Below are positions 25,063-34,315 of a stretch of 64,000 nucleotides of DNA, piece by piece. The stretch spans positions 310,001-374,000 of the forward strand of contig CAIMFJ010000004.1 in NCBI GenBank assembly GCA_903840355.1. The letters are read 5' to 3'. The first letter of the stretch is position 1. Every line of letters starts with the position of its first letter. The notes under the pieces are model-generated. The model saw only the letters and a program-made list of their open reading frames with translations, was not told where the DNA came from and ran no database searches. This DNA comes from an uncultured Opitutia bacterium. Lineage in GTDB: Bacteria; Verrucomicrobiota; Verrucomicrobiia; Opitutales; UBA953. The translations under genes and the position numbers were made by a program.

Positions 25063-25371
25063 ATGGCTCGTACTAAAATTCGCATTAAGCTCAAAGGCTT
25101 TGACTACCGCATGGTAGATCAATCGGCCAATGAGATTGTTGATACCGCCAAGCGCACCGGCGCCCGCGTTTCTGGTCCGGTACCTCTCCCTACCGACATT
25201 GAACGCCTTACGGTGAACCGTTCGCCGCACGTGGACAAGAAGTCCATGGATCAGTTCGAAATCCGCACCCACAAGCGCTTAATCGAGATTCTCGAGCCAA
25301 ACTCGCAGACCGTAGATGAGCTAAAGAAGCTTAATTTACCTTCTGGTGTTGACATTAACATCGTAGTCTAA
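25063..25371 (+). CDS. rpsJ: 30S ribosomal protein S10
   Basis: 102 residues: [20 protein letters not shown] at the start, GPVPLPT in the middle, and [19 protein letters not shown], the standard S10 loop, toward the end. S10 is part of the 30S head and also the NusE transcription antitermination factor. It follows fusA by 21 bases but is separated from rplC by 147 bases that contain predicted RNA structure, unlike the tight spacing elsewhere in the cluster. Confidence 0.98.
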
Positions 25372-25467
25372 CTCCTCAACCCTTCCACCTTTCACCTCCA
25401 ACCAACGCAGGCTGCGCCAGCGCCCCTCTTCAGGACCAAGATTCCGCAAGGACATCCTAAGCCTAAT

Positions 25468-25508
25468 GCAGGTCAGCAATGACCAAACGACCTTTACCGG
25501 TCACCTGC
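25468..25508 (+). promoter_or_regulatory. Structured leader ahead of rplC
   Basis: In the rpsJ-rplC spacer, GGTCA (25471-25475) and TGACC (25480-25484) close a GCAA tetraloop, and GACC (25489-25492) pairs with GGTC (25499-25502). A third pairing, GCAGGT (25468-25473) with ACCTGC (25503-25508), encloses both but competes for part of the first stem. The element ends 10 bases before the rplC ATG. It could be an autogenous ribosomal-protein binding site (L3 or L4), by analogy with S10-operon leaders. This is inference. Confidence 0.45.
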
Positions 25509-25518
25509 CTCTTAGAAA

Positions 25519-26148
25519 ATGAAACACCAACTACTCGGTAAAAAAATCGGAATGACCCAGGTATACGACGCGGAGAATAACCTCGTCCCTGTTACGGTCG
25601 TCCAAGCTGGCCCTTGTCCTGTTACCCAGGTCAAGACGGTCGATAAGGATGGTTACAATGCCGTCCAAATTGCTTTTGGTGCCCAAAAGGAAAGCCGCCT
25701 CTCGTCGGCTGAAGTCGGTCACCTTCGCAAAGCCGGCGTGGCTCCTCACAGCCACCTTCACGAAATCCGCGTTAGCGCCGCTTCGGACGCTAAGGTTGGC
25801 GACGTGATCACGGTTGAAAAGTTTTCGGCCGGTCAATTGGTCGACGTCATTGGCACTGTCAAGGGCCGTGGCTTCCAAGGCGTAATGAAGCGCCACAACA
25901 TGGCTGGTCAGCCTGACTCTCACGGTCACATGATGCACCGCCGAAGCGGTTCGATCGGTATGCGTCAAACTCCTGGTCACGTCTTTAAAGGTAAGCGCAT
26001 GCCTGGTCACATGGGTGCCGTGCAACGTACCGTCCAAAACCTTCGCGTCGTGCAAGTGCTCGCCGAGAAGAATCTCCTCCTCATCAAGGGCAGTTTCCCT
26101 GGTGCTAACGGCGAAGTCGTCGTGGTGCGTCCAGCTAAGAAAGCCTAG
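25519..26148 (+). CDS. rplC: 50S ribosomal protein L3
   Basis: 209 residues: GKKIGMTQVYDAENNLVPVT at the start; the central GRGFQGVMKRHNMAGQPDSHG and RQTPGHVFKGKRMPGHMG segments form the long loop that reaches the peptidyl transferase centre, with the Gln that is methylated in E. coli in the same stretch. The start is preceded by CTTAGAAA rather than a ribosome binding site. First gene after the structured spacer in the S10 cluster. Confidence 0.98.
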   Translation: MKHQLLGKKIGMTQVYDAENNLVPVTVVQAGPCPVTQVKTVDKDGYNAVQIAFGAQKESRLSSAEVGHLRKAGVAPHSHLHEIRVSAASDAKVGDVITVEKFSAGQLVDVIGTVKGRGFQGVMKRHNMAGQPDSHGHMMHRRSGSIGMRQTPGHVFKGKRMPGHMGAVQRTVQNLRVVQVLAEKNLLLIKGSFPGANGEVVVVRPAKKA

Positions 26149-26174
26149 TTCTCACTTAAAAAATAGCACGCGAT

Positions 26175-26801
26175 ATGAAGCTCAAAGTTTACAAGCCTGA
26201 CGGTTCGACTTTCACGGAGAAGGAATTTGATATTCCTTCTTTCGAAGGCGACAAGGGCGTGGCCTTGCTCAAGCAAGTCATCGTTTCCTATCAAGCCAAC
26301 AAGCGCCAAGGTACTTCCAAGACGAAGGACTACGGCGAAGTTGCTGGTTCTGGTAAAAAGATTCTCCCTCAAAAGGGTTCCGGCGGTTCCCGTCACGGCG
26401 ACAAGCGCGCCCCTCAATTATTCAAGGGTGGTATCGTCTTCGGTCCTCGCCCTCGCGATTGGTCCAAGACCATCACGGCTCAAGCCAAGAAGATCGCTTT
26501 GCAACGCGCCTTGTTCGAACTCGCTTCCGATGGTGGCCTGTCTGTGATCGAGCGCTTTGAAGTCGCGCAACCTAAGACCAAGCTCTTTGCCAAGGTGCTG
26601 ACGAATGTGAGCCCTGAAGGTAAGCGCCTCCTCGTGGTGGATAGCACCTGGTCCGAGCCCGTGCTCCGTGCGAGCCGCAACCTCGACCGCGCCGTCTTCT
26701 CGAATTCCTCTAACCTCAATGCGTTTGATTTGGTGCGTACGCCTCGCGTGCTCATCACTGAAGCGGGCCTAAAGAAGGTCCTCGAGCGCACCAAGAACTA
26801 A
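26175..26801 (+). CDS. rplD: 50S ribosomal protein L4
   Basis: 208 residues with the internal loop GEVAGSGKKILPQKGSGGSR that lines the polypeptide exit tunnel and the following GGIVFGPRPRDW. L4 also regulates its own S10 operon in E. coli by binding the leader RNA; the structured rpsJ-rplC spacer is a possible target here. Its start lies 26 bases after the rplC stop, with no Shine-Dalgarno motif. Confidence 0.97.
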   Translation: MKLKVYKPDGSTFTEKEFDIPSFEGDKGVALLKQVIVSYQANKRQGTSKTKDYGEVAGSGKKILPQKGSGGSRHGDKRAPQLFKGGIVFGPRPRDWSKTITAQAKKIALQRALFELASDGGLSVIERFEVAQPKTKLFAKVLTNVSPEGKRLLVVDSTWSEPVLRASRNLDRAVFSNSSNLNAFDLVRTPRVLITEAGLKKVLERTKN

Positions 26802-26811
26802 TCCCGATTCC

Positions 26812-27099
26812 ATGAAGCCAGCTTCCGCAATTATCAGCCGTCCCGTCCTGACCGAAAAGGCCTCAGGTTTGGCTGAAGCTAACAAGTACGTCTTTGAAGT
26901 TCTTCCGGGCGCCGACCGCGCTCAGATCAAAGCTGCCATCGAGGCCTCTTTCAAGGTCGCCGTGGTTAAGATCAACATCCTTATCCGCAAGGGTAAGGTG
27001 CGCCGCAGCCGTCTCGGTGGCGGTTCTATCTACCAAGAAACTCCTTCGCGTCGTGCGATTGTGACCCTCAAGAAGGGTGACGTCATCGCTCTCGCCTAA
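26812..27099 (+). CDS. rplW: 50S ribosomal protein L23
   Basis: 95 residues of the L23 fold (IISRPVLTEKASGLAEANKY, ADRAQIKAAIEASFKV, then a short basic loop KGKVRRSRLGG). L23 sits at the tunnel exit and docks trigger factor, SRP and the Sec machinery. It lies ten bases after rplD, in the normal order L4-L23-L2. Confidence 0.96.
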   Translation: MKPASAIISRPVLTEKASGLAEANKYVFEVLPGADRAQIKAAIEASFKVAVVKINILIRKGKVRRSRLGGGSIYQETPSRRAIVTLKKGDVIALA

Positions 27100-27120
27100 T
27101 CCTCTGCGTTCGTCCGTATC

Positions 27121-27981
27121 ATGCCTCTCGAAACTCACCATCCTATCACTCCCGGTCAGCGCTTCTTAGTGCGCGTTAAGACCGAAGGCCTGCACCGTGG
27201 CCGCTCGGAGCGCAGCTTGACCGAAAGCAACCACCGCGCCCGCGGTCGTAATTGCTATGGTCGCATCACTTCCCGCCGTCGTGGGGGAGGTCATAAAAAG
27301 CTTTACCGCAAAATCGACTTCCGTCGCGATCGTATCGACCAACCCGCCACGGTCTTGCGCATGGAGTATGATCCTAACCGCACGTCGCACCTCGCTTTAA
27401 TCGAGTATGCCGACAAGACCCACAGCTACATCTTGGCGCCCGATGGTTTGAAAGTCGGCGACAAGGTGGTCAGCACCAACACGGCTCAAGAGCAATTGAC
27501 CCCTGGTCTCTCGTTGCCTCTCCGCCTGATTCCTCCTGCTACTTTCATTCACTGCATCGAAATCGACCCAGGCAAGGGTGGTCAGCTCGCTCGTTCGGCT
27601 GGCGGCTTTGCTCAGTTGCTCGGTTTAGAAGATAGCCGTGCGATTCTCCGCATGCCCTCGGGCGAACAGCGTTACTTGAACGCTGATTGTCGCGCCACCG
27701 TCGGCATCGTCGGCAACATCGATCACCATAACGCCAGCCTTGGTAAGGCCGGTCGTAATCGTTGGAAGGGTCGTCGTCCTCGCGTTCGTGGTATGTCCAT
27801 GAATCCTGTGGATCACCCCAACGGTGGTGGTGGTGGTAAGTCCAAGGGTGGTGGTGGTCGCCAACACTTGAAGTCTCCTTGGGGTCAACTCGCGAAGGGC
27901 TTCCCAACGCGTACTAAGGCTAAGCCTTCGAACAACCAAATCATCGTTCGCCGTAATGGTCGAAAGGTAAAACAAGTATAA
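27121..27981 (+). CDS. rplB: 50S ribosomal protein L2
   Basis: 286 residues. The conserved ITSRRRGGGHKKLYRKIDFRR block and the C-terminal VRGMSMNPVDHPNGGGGG segment with the functionally essential His of L2 are present. The start MPLETHHPITPGQRFL is somewhat different from the common MGIRKYKPTTPGRR. L2 supports subunit joining and the peptidyl transferase centre. It is flanked by rplW and rpsS as usual. Confidence 0.98.
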   Translation: MPLETHHPITPGQRFLVRVKTEGLHRGRSERSLTESNHRARGRNCYGRITSRRRGGGHKKLYRKIDFRRDRIDQPATVLRMEYDPNRTSHLALIEYADKTHSYILAPDGLKVGDKVVSTNTAQEQLTPGLSLPLRLIPPATFIHCIEIDPGKGGQLARSAGGFAQLLGLEDSRAILRMPSGEQRYLNADCRATVGIVGNIDHHNASLGKAGRNRWKGRRPRVRGMSMNPVDHPNGGGGGKSKGGGGRQHLKSPWGQLAKGFPTRTKAKPSNNQIIVRRNGRKVKQV

Positions 27982-28004
27982 TCTTCCCGCTTTAATTCTT
28001 CACC

Positions 28005-28283
28005 ATGGCACGCTCACGCAAAAAGGGTTTCTTCGTCGACCCACACTTGGTCGACAAGATCACGACGGCTCAAAAGGCCAACAGTCGTAAGCCCATTAAG
28101 ACTTGGTCTCGTCGCTCTACGGTCACCCCTGAGTTCATCGGTTTAAACATCGAAGTTCACAATGGTAAGGCTTTCGTACCTGTTTACGTCACCGAAAACA
28201 TGGTAGGCCATAAGCTCGGAGAGTTCGCTCCTACGCGTACCTTCCGTCAGCACACCCAACCCTCTCGCAAGGAAGCCCAGTAA
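28005..28283 (+). CDS. rpsS: 30S ribosomal protein S19
   Basis: 92 residues: [19 protein letters not shown], then [24 protein letters not shown] and the C-terminal [15 protein letters not shown], all typical of S19, which binds the 16S head together with S13. Normally followed directly by rplV; here a small exported protein gene begins eight bases after its stop. Confidence 0.98.
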
Positions 28284-28291
28284 TCCTTTTC

Positions 28292-28630
28292 ATGCGCTCC
28301 GCTCTCGCCCTTCTTGTCGCCTCCTTCGTCTCCGCTTCTGCGGTAGCCGCTGGGTCGTCGTTGGGTATGGCGGAAGCCGATGGCAAGGCCACGGTTACCA
28401 CGATCCAATCGGCTCGTGCCACTGACTTGGTCATTCTCTCTGCTGGCTACGATCACGGTTTTCGTCCCGGTGCGGTTTGTACGGTGAGTCATGATGGCAA
28501 GCCTTTTGGCTCTGTCGTCATCGCCGAAGCTAATCGTTCTCGTGCCGTTGCCTTGATTCTGAATTTGGACCCTCAAAGCCAAATCCGCCCAGGAGATCTT
28601 GTCTCGCCCCGCGCTAACCCCCGCATCTAA
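28292..28630 (+). CDS. Small exported protein of unknown function inside the S10 cluster
   Basis: 112 residues, 8 bases after rpsS and 16 before rplV, in the same direction and with similar codon use. The N-terminus is a signal peptide (MRSALALLVASFVSASAVAA). The mature part of about 90 residues has the pattern LVILSAGYDHGFRPGAVCTV, then KPFGSVVIAE, then QIRPGDLV. This resembles the small beta-barrel domains with a G-x-x-x-G-x-x-x-x-V core found in periplasmic and rod-shape or flagellar proteins; the resemblance is general, not a family match. No cysteine pair or catalytic motif is seen. Its position implies high expression with the ribosome. Function unknown. Confidence 0.75.
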   Translation: MRSALALLVASFVSASAVAAGSSLGMAEADGKATVTTIQSARATDLVILSAGYDHGFRPGAVCTVSHDGKPFGSVVIAEANRSRAVALILNLDPQSQIRPGDLVSPRANPRI

Positions 28631-28646
28631 TACCCTTTATATCGTC

Positions 28647-28985
28647 ATGGAAGTTCACGCCACCACCCGTTTTGCTCGTATGTCGCCTCAGAAGGTTCGC
28701 GAAGTCGCGCGCCAGATTCAAGGCCTACCCGCTGAAGAAGCCATCCAACTTTTGCGCTTCATCCCTCGTAAGTCGGCTCGCCTCTTGGGCAAGACCCTCG
28801 CGAGCGCGATCGCTAACGCGGAAAACAATCACAACCTTTCCAGCTCTGACCTCGTCGTGGTTTCTGCCACGGTGAATCAAGGGCCGGTGATCAAGCGCTC
28901 GATGCCCGCTGCTCGCGGTTCGGCGCACCCTATCCACAAGTCTATGAGCCACATTCGCGTGGCCTTAGCTTCCCCCACCAAATAA
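28647..28985 (+). CDS. rplV: 50S ribosomal protein L22
   Basis: 112 residues from the ATG at 28647 (MEVHATTRFARMSPQKVREV). The open frame runs 16 codons further upstream, but that part overlaps the preceding gene in another frame. The conserved KSARLLGKTLASAIANAENN and the C-terminal hairpin KRSMPAARGSAHPIHKSMSH reach into the exit tunnel. It is followed 15 bases later by rpsC. Confidence 0.97.
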   Translation: MEVHATTRFARMSPQKVREVARQIQGLPAEEAIQLLRFIPRKSARLLGKTLASAIANAENNHNLSSSDLVVVSATVNQGPVIKRSMPAARGSAHPIHKSMSHIRVALASPTK

Positions 28986-29000
28986 TCCACTTCGCACTCC

Positions 29001-29642
29001 ATGGGCCAGAAAGTAAATCCAACCGGCTTCCGTTTAGCCGTCCGTCGCAACTGGGAATCTCGCTGGTATGCTACCAAGCGTACGTTCCCTGCTAACATCT
29101 TAGAAGATTACCGTATCCGCGCGTGTCTCAAAGAGAAGCTCCGTCAAGCGGCGGTGCCCCGTATTTTCATTGAGCGCGCTGGCCAGAAGGTCCGTGTGCG
29201 CATCTGGACCGCTCGTCCTGGTGTCGTTATCGGCCGTAAGGGAGAAGAACTCGGCAAGTTGCGCCAAGAGATCCAAAAGGTCGCTGGCAAGGCTCGCCTC
29301 GATGACGTCATCCTCGAAGTCAACGAAGTGAAGCACCCTGACTTGGTGGCTCAACTCGTCGCCGAGAACGTTGCTTTACAATTAGAGCGTCGCATTTCGT
29401 TCCGTCGTGCGATGAAGAAAGCCGTACAAACGACCATGACCAATGGTGCCGATGGCATCCGCTTGCGTCTGGCCGGTCGTTTAGGCGGTGCTGAAATCGC
29501 TCGCGTCGAGTCCGCTCGCGTGGGTCGCGTTCCGCTCCACACTTTGCGCGAAAACATCGACTATGGTTTCGCCGAAGCTCGCACCGTTTATGGTAAACTC
29601 GGCATCAAGTGCTGGATTTGCACTAAGGAAAGCGAATTCTAA
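29001..29642 (+). CDS. rpsC: 30S ribosomal protein S3
   Basis: 213 residues: MGQKVNPTGFRLAVRRNWES at the start, the KH domain with VVIGRKGEELGKLRQEI, and the C-terminal domain with MTNGADGIRLRLAGRLGGAE. S3 forms the mRNA entry channel and contributes to helicase activity of the ribosome. Standard order between rplV and rplP. Confidence 0.98.
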   Translation: MGQKVNPTGFRLAVRRNWESRWYATKRTFPANILEDYRIRACLKEKLRQAAVPRIFIERAGQKVRVRIWTARPGVVIGRKGEELGKLRQEIQKVAGKARLDDVILEVNEVKHPDLVAQLVAENVALQLERRISFRRAMKKAVQTTMTNGADGIRLRLAGRLGGAEIARVESARVGRVPLHTLRENIDYGFAEARTVYGKLGIKCWICTKESEF

Positions 29643-29674
29643 ACCAACCCTTAACGACTAAATTTTAAGCTCTC

Positions 29675-30103
29675 ATGGCCAACCTTCAACCAGCCCGCAC
29701 TAAGTGGCGCAAACACCGCAAAGGTAAAATTCGCGGCAAAGCGACGGCGTGCAACACTCTCAGTTTTGGCGACTTTGGTATTCAATCCTTGGATCGGGCT
29801 CGTTTGCCCGCCAACCAGATTGAAGCTGCCCGTATTGCCATCTCCCGTTCGCTGAAGCGTAAGGGCAAGATGTGGATGCGCATCTTCCCTCACACTCCCG
29901 TCACGCGTAAGCCTGCCGAAGTCCGAATGGGCTCTGGTAAAGGTAGCGTCGAGTACTACGTTTCCGTCGTGAAGCCTGGTACCATGCTCTTCGAAGTTGC
30001 CGGCGTGCCTATCAGCACCGCTCGCGAAGCGATGCGCTTGGCCGACACCAAATTGCAAGTTCGCTGCCGCTTCGTGGCTCGCGAAGAACTCGAAAAATTC
30101 TAA
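29675..30103 (+). CDS. rplP: 50S ribosomal protein L16
   Basis: 142 residues containing KWRKHRKGKIRGKATACNT, FGDFGIQSLDRARLPANQIE, RIFPHTPVTRKPAEVRMGSG and the C-terminal AREAMRLADTKLQVRCRFV of L16. The N-terminus starts MANLQPARTKW, where most have MLQPKRTK; the ATG at 29675 is the only close one. L16 lies at the A-site of the large subunit and is needed late in its assembly. Confidence 0.97.
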   Translation: MANLQPARTKWRKHRKGKIRGKATACNTLSFGDFGIQSLDRARLPANQIEAARIAISRSLKRKGKMWMRIFPHTPVTRKPAEVRMGSGKGSVEYYVSVVKPGTMLFEVAGVPISTAREAMRLADTKLQVRCRFVAREELEKF

Positions 30104-30122
30104 TCTCAACTGATCTATTTCT

Positions 30123-30344
30123 ATGGCAACTTTCCGCAAAGATAAACCCTCCGCTGCTTCGGCTCTGCGTCCTTTGGCGACGGCTGAGTTAGAGAAGCGT
30201 GTTCGCGAAGCTCGCGAAGAACTCCTCCAATTGCGCCTCCGTAAGGCCACCGGTGCCGTCGAGAACTCGGCGCGCTTTCGTGCTTTGCGTCGCGACATTG
30301 CTCGCTGCCTGACCGTTCTTGCGGCCCAAGCTAAACAGAAATAA
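30123..30344 (+). CDS. rpmC: 50S ribosomal protein L29
   Basis: 73 residues, two helices. After an N-terminal extension (about 17 residues, ATFRKDKPSAASALRP), the L29 core reads ELEKRVREAREELLQLRLRK, then ENSARFRALRRDIARCLTVL. L29 sits beside L23 at the tunnel exit. It lies between rplP and rpsQ as usual. Confidence 0.94.
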   Translation: MATFRKDKPSAASALRPLATAELEKRVREAREELLQLRLRKATGAVENSARFRALRRDIARCLTVLAAQAKQK

Positions 30345-30368
30345 TCTTAACCCTTCATTCCTTTTCCA

Positions 30369-30653
30369 ATGTCCGAGTCTCGCTCCAATCGTAAAACCCT
30401 TATCGGCCTCGTCGCTTCGCGCTCGGGGGATAAGTCTATCAAGGTCAACTTCCAGTACACGGTACCACACCCTGTGTATGGTAAAGAAGTTAAACGTCGT
30501 ACCGTCTTGCACGCTCACGATGAAAAGAATGAGTGCAAAGTCGGCGACAAAGTCGAAATCATGGAGACCCGCCCTCTTTCCCGCTTGAAGCGCTGGCGCG
30601 TGATTCGCGTGGTCGAAGCCGCTAAAATCGCCGCTCAAACCATCGACGACTAA
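30369..30653 (+). CDS. rpsQ: 30S ribosomal protein S17
   Basis: 94 residues with the OB-fold signature of S17: [39 protein letters not shown] and [21 protein letters not shown] primary 16S rRNA binding protein in the 5' domain. It is followed 38 bases later by rplN, which opens the spc part of the cluster. Confidence 0.97.
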
Positions 30654-30691
30654 GTCCCGTCGTTCCTCCTCCAACCCTTACTCTCTTTTTT

Positions 30692-31057
30692 ATGATTCAA
30701 ATGCTTTCTCGGCTCGATGTAGCCGACAACACCGGCGCCCGCAAGGTCCGCATGATCCGCCGCCTTGGTCAGTTGACTGACACGGCCGGCATTGGTGACG
30801 TCATCATTTGTTCGGTGAAGGATTCCACGCCTGACGCCCAGGTGAAAAAGGGTTCGGTTTGCCGCGCCGTCATCGTGCGTACCGTGGCTCCTATCCGCCG
30901 TGCGGATGGCAGCTACCTGCGCTTTGACAGCAATGCCGTCGTGATCCTCGACGACAATGGTAACCCCAAAGGTACGCGCATCTTCGGGCCTGTGGCTCGC
31001 GAATTGCGCGGTAAGAATTTCATGAAAATCATCTCCCTCGCTCCCGAGGTGCTCTAA
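30692..31057 (+). CDS. rplN: 50S ribosomal protein L14
   Basis: 121 residues: [19 protein letters not shown] at the start, then [20 protein letters not shown] and the C-terminal [20 protein letters not shown]. All L14 landmarks are present. It sits at the subunit interface. The start is preceded by a pyrimidine-rich stretch (CTTACTCTCTTTTTT) and no ribosome binding site. Confidence 0.98.
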
Positions 31058-31062
31058 TTACC

Positions 31063-31332
31063 ATGTCTAAGACTGACATCAAAAAAGGTGACGAAATCGT
31101 CGTCATCGCCGGCTCCGAAAAAGGTAAGCGCGGTAAAGTTCTTTCCTACAGCCGTGCTGAAGAGCGCCTGACCGTTGAAGGACTCAACTTGGTCAAGCGT
31201 CACCTCAAGCGCACGCAAGACGGTCAAGGTGGCATCACCGAACGTGAAGCCCCATTGCATCGTTCGAACGTGATGTTGGCCTCCATTTGGGATGCCCGTC
31301 GTACCAAAAAGCCTGCCAAGGCTGCCAAATAA
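31063..31332 (+). CDS. rplX: 50S ribosomal protein L24
   Basis: 89 residues with the KOW motif ([20 protein letters not shown]) and the continuation [21 protein letters not shown]24 starts 50S assembly by binding the 5' end of 23S rRNA. It begins five bases after rplN and is followed by rplE, the usual order. Confidence 0.96.
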
Positions 31333-31364
31333 TTCCGACGAAACCACCCGAGATTTAAACGTCC

Positions 31365-31961
31365 ATGTCCACGAAGCCCTATCTTAAACAGTTCTACCTC
31401 GAGAAGGTCGTCCCCGAGCTCATTAAGAGCCGCGGTTACAAGAACGTTCACCAGGTTCCTAACCTCAAGAAAATCGTTCTGAACTCTGCTTTCAAGTCCG
31501 ACGCCGACAAAGGTCACATGGCCGAAGTGGTCAAGGAATTGACCAAGCTCTCCGGCCAAAAGCCCGTGATCACGAAGGCCGCGAAGTCGGTCGCTAACTT
31601 CAAAGTTCGTCAAGGCATGCCCTTAGGTTGCATGGTCACCTTGCGTGGAGCCCGCATGTGGGAATTCTTCCTACGCTTAACCGTCGTCGCTCTGCCGATG
31701 ATTCGCGACTTCCGCGGTACCTCGAACCGTCTCGACGGTCGTGGTAACTACTCGCTCGGTATTACCGACCACACCATCTTCCCTGAAACCCAAGCCGACG
31801 GCTCGCAACGGGCGAACATCGGTATGGATGTCGTCATCGTCACCTCGGCGACGAACGACGAAGAAGGTCGCGAATTACTCCGCCTCCTCGGCATGCCCTT
31901 CCGTCGCTCTTCGGCTGCGGATGCTGCCGCCGCTGCCGCGAACGCTGCCACCAAAGCCTAA
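31365..31961 (+). CDS. rplE: 50S ribosomal protein L5
   Basis: 198 residues, about 18 more than the family norm. The core is standard (LKKIVLNSAFKSD, GQKPVITKAAKSVANFKVRQ, RDFRGTSNRLDGRGNYSLGI, then TIFPE). The extra residues form an alanine-rich C-terminal tail (SSAADAAAAAANAATKA). L5 binds 5S rRNA and contacts P-site tRNA and S13. Confidence 0.96.
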   Translation: MSTKPYLKQFYLEKVVPELIKSRGYKNVHQVPNLKKIVLNSAFKSDADKGHMAEVVKELTKLSGQKPVITKAAKSVANFKVRQGMPLGCMVTLRGARMWEFFLRLTVVALPMIRDFRGTSNRLDGRGNYSLGITDHTIFPETQADGSQRANIGMDVVIVTSATNDEEGRELLRLLGMPFRRSSAADAAAAAANAATKA

Positions 31962-31983
31962 CCTCTAATTATTTTATACTAGC

Positions 31984-32289
31984 ATGGCCAAGAAGTCTGT
32001 TATCCAACGCGCCCTTAAGCGCGAACGCCTTGTCAAGAAGTACGCGGCTAAGCGTACCGAGTTGAAGAAGGTCCTCGCTGATCCTAATGTCAGCGAAGAT
32101 GCGTTCTACGCAGCGCAACGCGCTTTGACGAAGTTGCCTCGGAATTCTTCCCTCGTCCGGAAGAAGAACCGTTGTTCCATCTCGGGTCGTCCGCGTGCTT
32201 ACATCCGTAAGTTCGGCTTGTCCCGTATCACCTTCCGCGAACTAGCCCTCAACGGCCAAATTCCTGGCGTCACCAAAGCTTCTTGGTAA
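31984..32289 (+). CDS. rpsN: 30S ribosomal protein S14 (zinc-free type)
   Basis: 101 residues, the long form of S14. The C-terminal [20 protein letters not shown] and [18 protein letters not shown] match S14. The CxxC...CxxC zinc knuckle of the short form is absent: only one Cys, in NRCSISGRP, remains. It is placed between rplE and rpsH as in most bacteria. Confidence 0.97.
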
Positions 32290-32310
32290 TCACCCCCGCA
32301 CTTTATTTAT

Positions 32311-32709
32311 ATGTCCGCTTCAACTGATACTATCGGGGATTTTCTGACCGCGATTCGGAATGCCTCGCAGGCCAATAAGGCCACTGTGATTGTGCAATGG
32401 TCGCGTCTGCGCGAAGGCGTGGCTCGTATTTTAACCGAAGCTGGTTACCTGTCCGGTTCTCGCAAGGGCGAGCGCGACGGTTTGCCCGTTTTAGAAATTA
32501 ACCTTAAGTACGTCGCTGGTGTCCCCGCCATCACGAGCATTGAGCGCGTCTCGACCCCTGGTCGTCGCGTTTATGCAGGTTACACGGCCGTGCCGAGCGT
32601 CATCGGCGGTATGGGCGTTTCGATCCTCACCACCTCTCGTGGCGTCATGACCGACGCCGAAGCACGTCGCCAAAAAGTTGGCGGCGAACTCCTCGCCAAA
32701 GTCTGGTAA
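32311..32709 (+). CDS. rpsH: 30S ribosomal protein S8
   Basis: 132 residues: TDTIGDFLTAIRNASQANK at the start and GVSILTTSRGVMTDAEARRQ, the signature in the C-terminal half, followed by GGELLAKVW. S8 binds the central domain of 16S rRNA and is the spc operon repressor in E. coli; no matching mRNA structure was sought in detail here. It lies between rpsN and rplF. Confidence 0.97.
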   Translation: MSASTDTIGDFLTAIRNASQANKATVIVQWSRLREGVARILTEAGYLSGSRKGERDGLPVLEINLKYVAGVPAITSIERVSTPGRRVYAGYTAVPSVIGGMGVSILTTSRGVMTDAEARRQKVGGELLAKVW

Positions 32710-32739
32710 AACCCTGATTCACTTAAAACCCGTAACGTT

Positions 32740-33300
32740 ATGAGCCGCATCGGCAAACAACCCGTCAATATTCCCGCTGGAGTCAAAGTCGCCGTCGCTG
32801 GCAACGTTGTCTCCGTCGAAGGACCTAAGGGTAAACTTTCGAAACCATTCCCTAAAGAAATCGGTGTCACCGTTGATAAGAACGTGGTCACCGTCTCCGA
32901 CCTCACGGCGAAGAAGGGTAAAGATGGTAAAGATGTTGGTACCGCTGGCGCCTTACACGGCACCATCCGCGCCATCATTCGTAATATGGTAGAGGGTGTG
33001 ACCACGGGTTACACCAAGACCCTTCTCATCGAAGGCGTCGGTTTCAAAGCCATCTTGAAGGGCAATTTGCTCGACTTGGCTTTGGGCTACTCGCACCCCA
33101 TCCAATACAAGATTCCTGCGGGCGTAAACGTGGTCGTCACCGACGGCACGAAGCTCGTGATCTCCGGCGCTGATCGCCACATGGTCGGTCAAGTCGCTTC
33201 CTCCATCAAACTCTATAAGCCTGTCGAGCCTTACAAAGGTAAGGGTGTTCGCGTTGAAGGTGAATACGTCCGCCGTAAGGAAGGCAAGAAGACGGCTTAA
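32740..33300 (+). CDS. rplF: 50S ribosomal protein L6
   Basis: 186 residues: MSRIGKQPVNIPAGVKVAV, then NMVEGVTTGYTKTLLIEGVG and the C-terminal EPYKGKGVRVEGEYVRRKEG signature. The two duplicated alpha/beta domains of L6 are both present. It lies near the factor-binding site of the large subunit. Confidence 0.98.
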   Translation: MSRIGKQPVNIPAGVKVAVAGNVVSVEGPKGKLSKPFPKEIGVTVDKNVVTVSDLTAKKGKDGKDVGTAGALHGTIRAIIRNMVEGVTTGYTKTLLIEGVGFKAILKGNLLDLALGYSHPIQYKIPAGVNVVVTDGTKLVISGADRHMVGQVASSIKLYKPVEPYKGKGVRVEGEYVRRKEGKKTA

Positions 33301-33318
33301 GCCTCTTAACTTTTTAAT

Positions 33319-33681
33319 ATGAAACTGCAGAAGAAGAATCTCTTGGCGCAAAAGCGTCGCTGGCGTATCCGCAAGACTGTGCGTGGTACGGCTGCTCGTC
33401 CTCGCTTGGCTCTGAAGATGACCCACTTGCACCTTTACGCTCAAGCGATTGATGACGATAAGGGCGCAACCTTAGCCTCGTTGTCGACCACTTCGAAAGA
33501 TCTCCGTGGTCAAAAGCTCCGTCCGAACGTCGCTGGTGCGACGACTTTTGGCGAAGCCTTTGGTGCTAAAGCCAAAGCCGCTGGTTTAACCACGGTGGTT
33601 TTCGATCGTGCGGGTCGTCGTTACCATGGCACGGTGAAGGCCTTTGCCGAAGCAGCTCGTAAGGGAGGCTTAATTTTCTAA
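33319..33681 (+). CDS. rplR: 50S ribosomal protein L18
   Basis: 120 residues: basic N-terminus ([20 protein letters not shown]), central [19 protein letters not shown], and C-terminal [20 protein letters not shown] typical of L18, which binds 5S rRNA. It ends four bases before rpsE, so the two are probably translationally coupled. Confidence 0.97.
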
Positions 33682-33685
33682 TTTC

Positions 33686-34315
33686 ATGAGCGAAGAAAAC
33701 AAAAGTCCTGCAGCCGCGCCTGCAGTAGGTGGTCCAAGCCGCTCCGGCGGTGATCGTCGTGGCCCCGGTGGTCAAGGCGGCAACAATCGTCGTGGTGGTC
33801 AAGGCGGTCCCGGCCAAGGTGGTCGTGGTCCTCGTCGCGACAATCGCAACGATGCTCCAGCTTCTGAATACAACGATAAGGTCGTGCACATCAACCGCTG
33901 CTCGAAGGTCGTTAAGGGTGGTCGTCGCTTTAACTTTGCTGCGTTGGTCGTTGCCGGTGACGGCAAGGGTCGCGTGGGTGTTGGCTACGGCAAGGCGAAG
34001 GAAGTGCCTGATGCGATTCGCAAAGGTACCGACCGTGCTCACCGTGCTTTAGTCCACGTCAACTTGCGTGGTAACACGATTCCTCACGAAGTCATCGGTC
34101 ATGCCGATGGTGGCGTGGTGATGCTCCGCCCAGCTGCGCCTGGTACGGGTCTCATCGCCGGTGGTGGCGTGCGTGCCGTGCTCGAAGTGGCTGGCTATAA
34201 AGACGTGCTTTCGAAGTCGATGGGCTCGAACAATCCTCAAGCGATTGTGAAGGCGACCCTCGATGGTCTTTCCAAACTCCGTACGCTTGAACAAATCAAG
34301 TCTCTCCGCGCTTAA
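33686..34315 (+). CDS. rpsE: 30S ribosomal protein S5 with Gly/Arg-rich N-terminal extension
   Basis: 209 residues. From about residue 60 the S5 core is normal ([37 protein letters not shown], then [19 protein letters not shown]). The first 55 residues are low complexity, with alternating Gly, Gln and Arg ([20 protein letters not shown] and similar), resembling RGG-type RNA-binding tails. S5 shapes the mRNA entry and decoding region. rpmD, which usually follows rpsE, is absent: rplO begins 15 bases later. Confidence 0.97.

Follow-up and report, generated by a model that had tools for sequence, protein, structure and literature searches.

FlgT, TsaP, and MreC are three proteins of the periplasm with roles in building or holding larger assemblies. 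FlgT (PF16538; structures 3w1e and 8z5n) combines a six-stranded barrel with N and M domains, TsaP (3jc8 and 6ve2) is a LysM protein of type IV pili, and MreC (PF04085; 2j5u and 7eft) is a rod-shape scaffold with two barrels. In SecM-type monitors, an exported protein is encoded directly upstream of a gene that it may regulate, and SecM itself contains the sequence RAGP. Furthermore, secY is routinely carried in ribosomal operons. An earlier note on a 64,000-nucleotide (nt) stretch of DNA from an uncultured Opitutia bacterium (order Opitutales, phylum Verrucomicrobiota), here referred to as the window, had pointed to a small open reading frame (ORF), here called gene X, inserted between rpsS and rplV. 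The note described its product as a 112-residue protein with a clear signal peptide and stressed its tight spacing and matching codon use. We found no description of an insertion between rpsS and rplV in the literature that we searched.

The ORF was found exactly as described and proved to be a genuine gene, flanked by the genes for ribosomal proteins S19 and L22 (Table 1), whose identities were both borne out by Pfam and NCBIfam. X is a single-copy gene of a 2.27-Mb source genome comprising 8 contigs. Its spacing is indeed tight, with 8 nt between rpsS and X and 16 nt between X and rplV, all on the plus strand, and its codon log-odds value (0.044) falls inside the range of the ribosomal genes (−0.005 to 0.137), the rest of the window being mostly negative. 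Within the genus, divergence of X at codon positions 1, 2, and 3 amounted to 0.31, 0.22, and 0.51, respectively, and the median dN/dS of unsaturated pairs was 0.38; these substitution patterns indicate that X is under purifying selection. It should be noted that the opposite strand is also open over 111 codons (window 28247-28582, minus strand), so that long open frames do occur at this locus; the sense-strand codon pattern of X indicates that this antisense frame is a by-product. Against the idea that X itself is a chance open frame or an annotation artefact stand its conserved homologues, its synteny, and the selection acting on it, which rule this idea out and leave it a negligible probability.

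Table 1. Gene X, the segments of its predicted protein, and its neighbors (window coordinates)
Feature	Position	Strand	Description and evidence
rpsS (ribosomal protein S19), upstream neighbor	28005..28283	+	PF00203, E value 3.2e-36; TIGR01050, E value 5.8e-41
Gene X	28292..28630	+	ATG start, 112 aa, exported-type protein; ORF, homologues at same junction, purifying selection
Signal-peptide-like N-terminus of X, residues 1-20	28292..28351	+	MR-hydrophobic-AVAA; simple rule and AlphaFold2 helix 5-17
Predicted six-stranded beta-barrel domain of X, residues 31-110	28382..28621	+	AlphaFold2, Foldseek, profile match to long-form domain
rplV (ribosomal protein L22), downstream neighbor	28647..28985	+	PF00237, E value 1.5e-36; most constant partner of X

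No family in Pfam or NCBIfam reached its cut-off for X. A match to FeoA (PF04023) scored 18 bits, below the cut-off of 23, in only 1 of 54 X members and was taken as chance, and YciI-like matches were dismissed likewise. Neither a promoter-like site nor a plus-strand terminator-like site was found around X, and X would probably be carried on the S10 transcript. GGAG, GAGG, or AGGA was found at the usual upstream place neither in X nor in any of the 19 ribosomal genes of the S10/spc series that were checked (window 25063-34315), which suggests that these genes and X start translation without Shine-Dalgarno pairing.

The earlier note had proposed examining the synteny of the junction in Verrucomicrobiota and had held that a lack of homologues in related genomes, combined with a failure to detect a peptide, would point to a chance frame. 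Homologues occupied this junction across the genus and the order, and linkage to rplV extended through much of the phylum. Our first search set consisted of the source genome and 56 relatives, and 47 of these 57 genomes contained X matches. In the 29 same-genus loci that we fetched, as well as in eight from other families, X was flanked by rpsS and rplV, with all three genes in one orientation (named records of the window's genus are Opitutales or Opitutae bacteria, mostly metagenome-assembled). The survey of the order sampled 130 genomes, 119 of which contained both S19 and L22. X adjoined S19/L22 in 65 of these 119, representing 13 families, and essentially every strong match in the order adjoined rplV; two of the 65 are located at contig ends, one (G095) with X split over two contigs and the other (G168) with X beside L22 and S19 on another contig. 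In the order genomes without X, the distance between S19 and L22 was mostly 35 to 165 nt. X was missing from many families whose S10 operons stay intact and is therefore not essential to the operon. Judged from its distribution, X may have been present in the ancestor of the order and lost many times since, or it may have been gained early.

Several loci of the survey deserve separate mention. Two X matches of family f17 (G143:C21:62074-62367 and G153:C1:111452-111757) contain an in-frame TAA and are possibly decaying copies, or else their frame ends were misjudged. Two metagenome-assembled records that bear the names Akkermansia muciniphila and Polynucleobacter meluiroseus (L071 and L089) contain the short X of the Opitutales type, and these genomes therefore look misnamed or mixed. 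Finally, in family f14 a conserved RNA-like element of the form AAGGRYAGGG-hairpin-CTRTCGCC-hairpin-GGAATC was located directly upstream of rplV (L118-L120, L122-L125, L134-L137, and L150-L169). It occurred as one copy per genome in 26 of 61 f14 genomes, while the reversed-pattern control yielded none, and in 20 new loci it always ended 10 to 17 nt before the L22 match. One helix pair of the element covaries perfectly (14 C-G, 12 U-A, and 0 other), and an Rfam search with seven loci gave no match. The element, which is absent from the window and occurs both with and without X, is a candidate rplV leader.

Outside the order, the X profile retrieved weak matches only (E values of 1e-13 to 1e-4), to proteins of about 170 to 300 aa. 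The assumption that these proteins are paralogues at unrelated loci was rejected, since most of them sit at the rpsS-rplV junction. Their architecture combines the barrel of X with a preceding coiled coil and with either a signal peptide or an anchor. As determined from S19 and L22 positions and from reading the DNA, the carriers of this long form at the junction or immediately before rplV comprise 14 families outside the order (f29, f31, f33, f34, f41, f43, f45, f46 in part, f50, f51, f53, f55, f57, and f59). No long form was detected in f30, f32, f42, f44, f47, f48, f49, f52, f54, f56, f58, and f60, for several of which only a short S19-L22 distance was measured. In G173, G209, and G242 and in families f41, f46, f47, f51, f52, and f57, rpsS and rplV were located either on separate contigs or at distant positions of a single contig; in several families the S10 operon thus appears to be interrupted at precisely this junction. 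Among the families in which the two genes were separated in this way, the long form was found directly upstream of rplV (L185, L189, L190, L192-L198, and L200). The view that the rpsS-rplV junction is among the most conserved in bacterial genomes, from which the earlier note had started, consequently fails for this phylum, in which many families carry an insertion and several have rpsS and rplV apart.

True paralogues were also seen away from the junction (L106, L107, L108, L113, and L149:6304-7218). The last of these, on the minus strand, is the only other barrel-domain copy found in the source genome; its 304-aa product comprises an anchor, a coiled coil, and a barrel, and its neighbors, named by eye, are rsmI-like and pgi-like genes. 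To return to the junction, pairwise distances of the X barrel correlated with those of L22 across 74 genomes, none of them from the heavily sampled genus except the window's own (Spearman/Mantel rho of 0.66, reached by 0 of 1,000 matrix permutations). This co-divergence supports common descent of X with the operon over repeated transfer. Collectively, these sequence comparisons indicate that X is an old rplV-linked protein of the exported type that was trimmed in the order and lost repeatedly.

The signal peptide claimed for X was corroborated as a signal-like N-terminus. A simple sequence rule, applied identically to members and controls, required hydrophobic residues at the N-terminus and a small-x-small site after them; it was passed by 54 of 54 aligned X members versus 2 of 20 cytosolic controls (ribosomal proteins and the fusA product), the start codons of distant members having been picked by position, which favors a good fit to the rule. 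In X, cleavage would occur after residue 19 or 20, and the signal peptide would carry the protein across the inner membrane. X as a lipoprotein was ruled out, as no consistent lipobox was found in the members. The operon context, together with the fact that translation proteins also include barrel folds, could instead mark X as a cytoplasmic ribosome-associated factor whose hydrophobic N-terminus is a membrane anchor or an accident. However, the signal-like character and the small-x-small site are retained by every member although the N-terminal sequence is poorly conserved, and the nearest folds and profile matches of X are periplasmic proteins, so that we regard a cytoplasmic factor as very unlikely.

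Structure prediction had also been proposed in the earlier note. AlphaFold2, supplied with 54 sequences, modeled residues 31 to 110 of X as a barrel of six strands with pLDDT values above 90. For the long form (236 aa, 18 sequences), it predicted helices at residues 5 to 143 and six strands at residues 160 to 232, in the same strand order as in X. In agreement, hhalign aligned X with the long form at a probability of 98.9% and with a mixed set of long-form and paralogue domains at 99.3%. Foldseek ranked FlgT (3w1e/8z5n) first for both the short X (E value of 3.7e-3) and the long form (4.5e-5). Upon structural re-ranking of X, FlgT (Z of 9.7 to 10.0) was level with the N-terminal barrels of F1-ATPase (Z of about 10), which dominate the list of fold neighbors and make the absence of other folds from it uninformative. 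Because the barrel is a common fold and the F1-ATPase barrels score equally, the fold alone gives no function for X.

AlphaFold2 was less certain about the final residues of X (window 28604-28627), which include R-A-N-P-R-I and are nearly constant in two genera. Their ending, R-A-N-P-R-[I/L]-stop, recalls the RAGP of SecM, and the exported-type X is encoded immediately upstream of rplV, whose product lines the exit tunnel. By analogy with SecM and secA, a nascent X chain might thus pause the ribosome and tune the translation of rplV. The motif is, however, limited to two genera, the C-termini in other families being unrelated, and no C-terminal arrest sequence conserved across the X family was found. 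Moreover, its variants include RANSRI, RPNPRI, and RVNPRL, the first of which is devoid of the proline that such arrests need, and in contrast to SecM-type monitors, X has a folded, conserved mature domain. We therefore consider a secretion monitor of this kind extremely improbable.

We compared X with the three periplasmic proteins. FlgT, the best Foldseek match of both forms, may share with X a six-stranded barrel and a periplasmic location; X nevertheless lacks the N and M domains, and neither X nor 53 homologues matched PF16538 at an E value of ≤0.1. One true paralogue scored 24.7 bits against PF16538 (cut-off of 27). The flagellar P-ring protein FlgI was absent from the source genome and from 59 of the 65 X genomes; among the 119 order genomes, X was present in 6 of 34 with FlgI and in 59 of 85 without it (Fisher P value of 4e-7, in statistics that ignore kinship). 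A flagellar role of X was rejected, as FlgI is missing from most carriers. The C-terminal part of TsaP matched a profile built from long forms and paralogues (3jc8, E value of 9.8e-5), but no LysM match was found in X or its homologues. Secretins occurred in 125 of the 130 order genomes, with or without X, so that their presence cannot discriminate, and a pilus or secretion role of X is neither supported nor excluded. MreC resembles the long form in its succession of anchor, coiled coil, and barrel. Foldseek ranked it below FlgT (E values: long form, 1.2e-3; X, 2.6e-2), and one long form matched the NCBIfam MreC model below its cut-off (E value of 1e-4). In contrast to MreC, with its two barrels, the long form has one and the short X has no coiled coil; the X locus is the rpsS-rplV junction and does not lie beside mreB, and PF04085 matched neither X nor its homologues nor the long forms.

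Taken together, we consider it probable that X is an old, vertically inherited, rplV-linked envelope-protein gene of the phylum, of the periplasmic scaffold or adaptor type. An older and longer form would have carried a coiled coil before the barrel, the X of the order being trimmed to the signal peptide and the barrel, and the mature protein would be a six-stranded barrel like those of FlgT, TsaP, and MreC. As all three build or hold larger assemblies in the periplasm, the most likely job of X would be to hold other envelope proteins. If X is read from the S10 transcript, its amount would follow ribosome synthesis.

It is also possible, if rather doubtful in our view, that X is an ordinary envelope protein that owes its abundance to a strongly expressed operon and is functionally unconnected with either ribosomes or L22. 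Its repeated loss from operons that stay intact fits this reading, as do the precedent of secY and the lack of a biochemical link between X and L22. Nevertheless, linkage to rplV persists after the separation of rpsS and rplV, which goes beyond random parking, although one ancient insertion followed by inertia could explain it. That X serves as a dedicated connection from ribosome synthesis to the envelope, and has been retained next to rplV through much of the phylum because the pairing matters, appears unlikely to us, whether its export would report ribosome output to the envelope or its synthesis and export would feed back on rplV. The putative regulatory link between translation and the envelope, which the earlier note had suggested as a tie between translation rate and envelope growth, is possible but unsupported, and any such link would be dispensable, since many families with normal S10 operons have lost X.

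An exported-type gene that is retained next to rplV, in families scattered over a single phylum and also after the separation of rpsS from rplV, would not be expected in one of the most studied operons of bacteria, and it appears to be undescribed in the literature that we searched. X is a clear and testable candidate for a mechanism that couples ribosome production to the cell envelope. For at least one relative, Verrucomicrobium spinosum, a transposon library and targeted mutagenesis have been published (PMC12283558).
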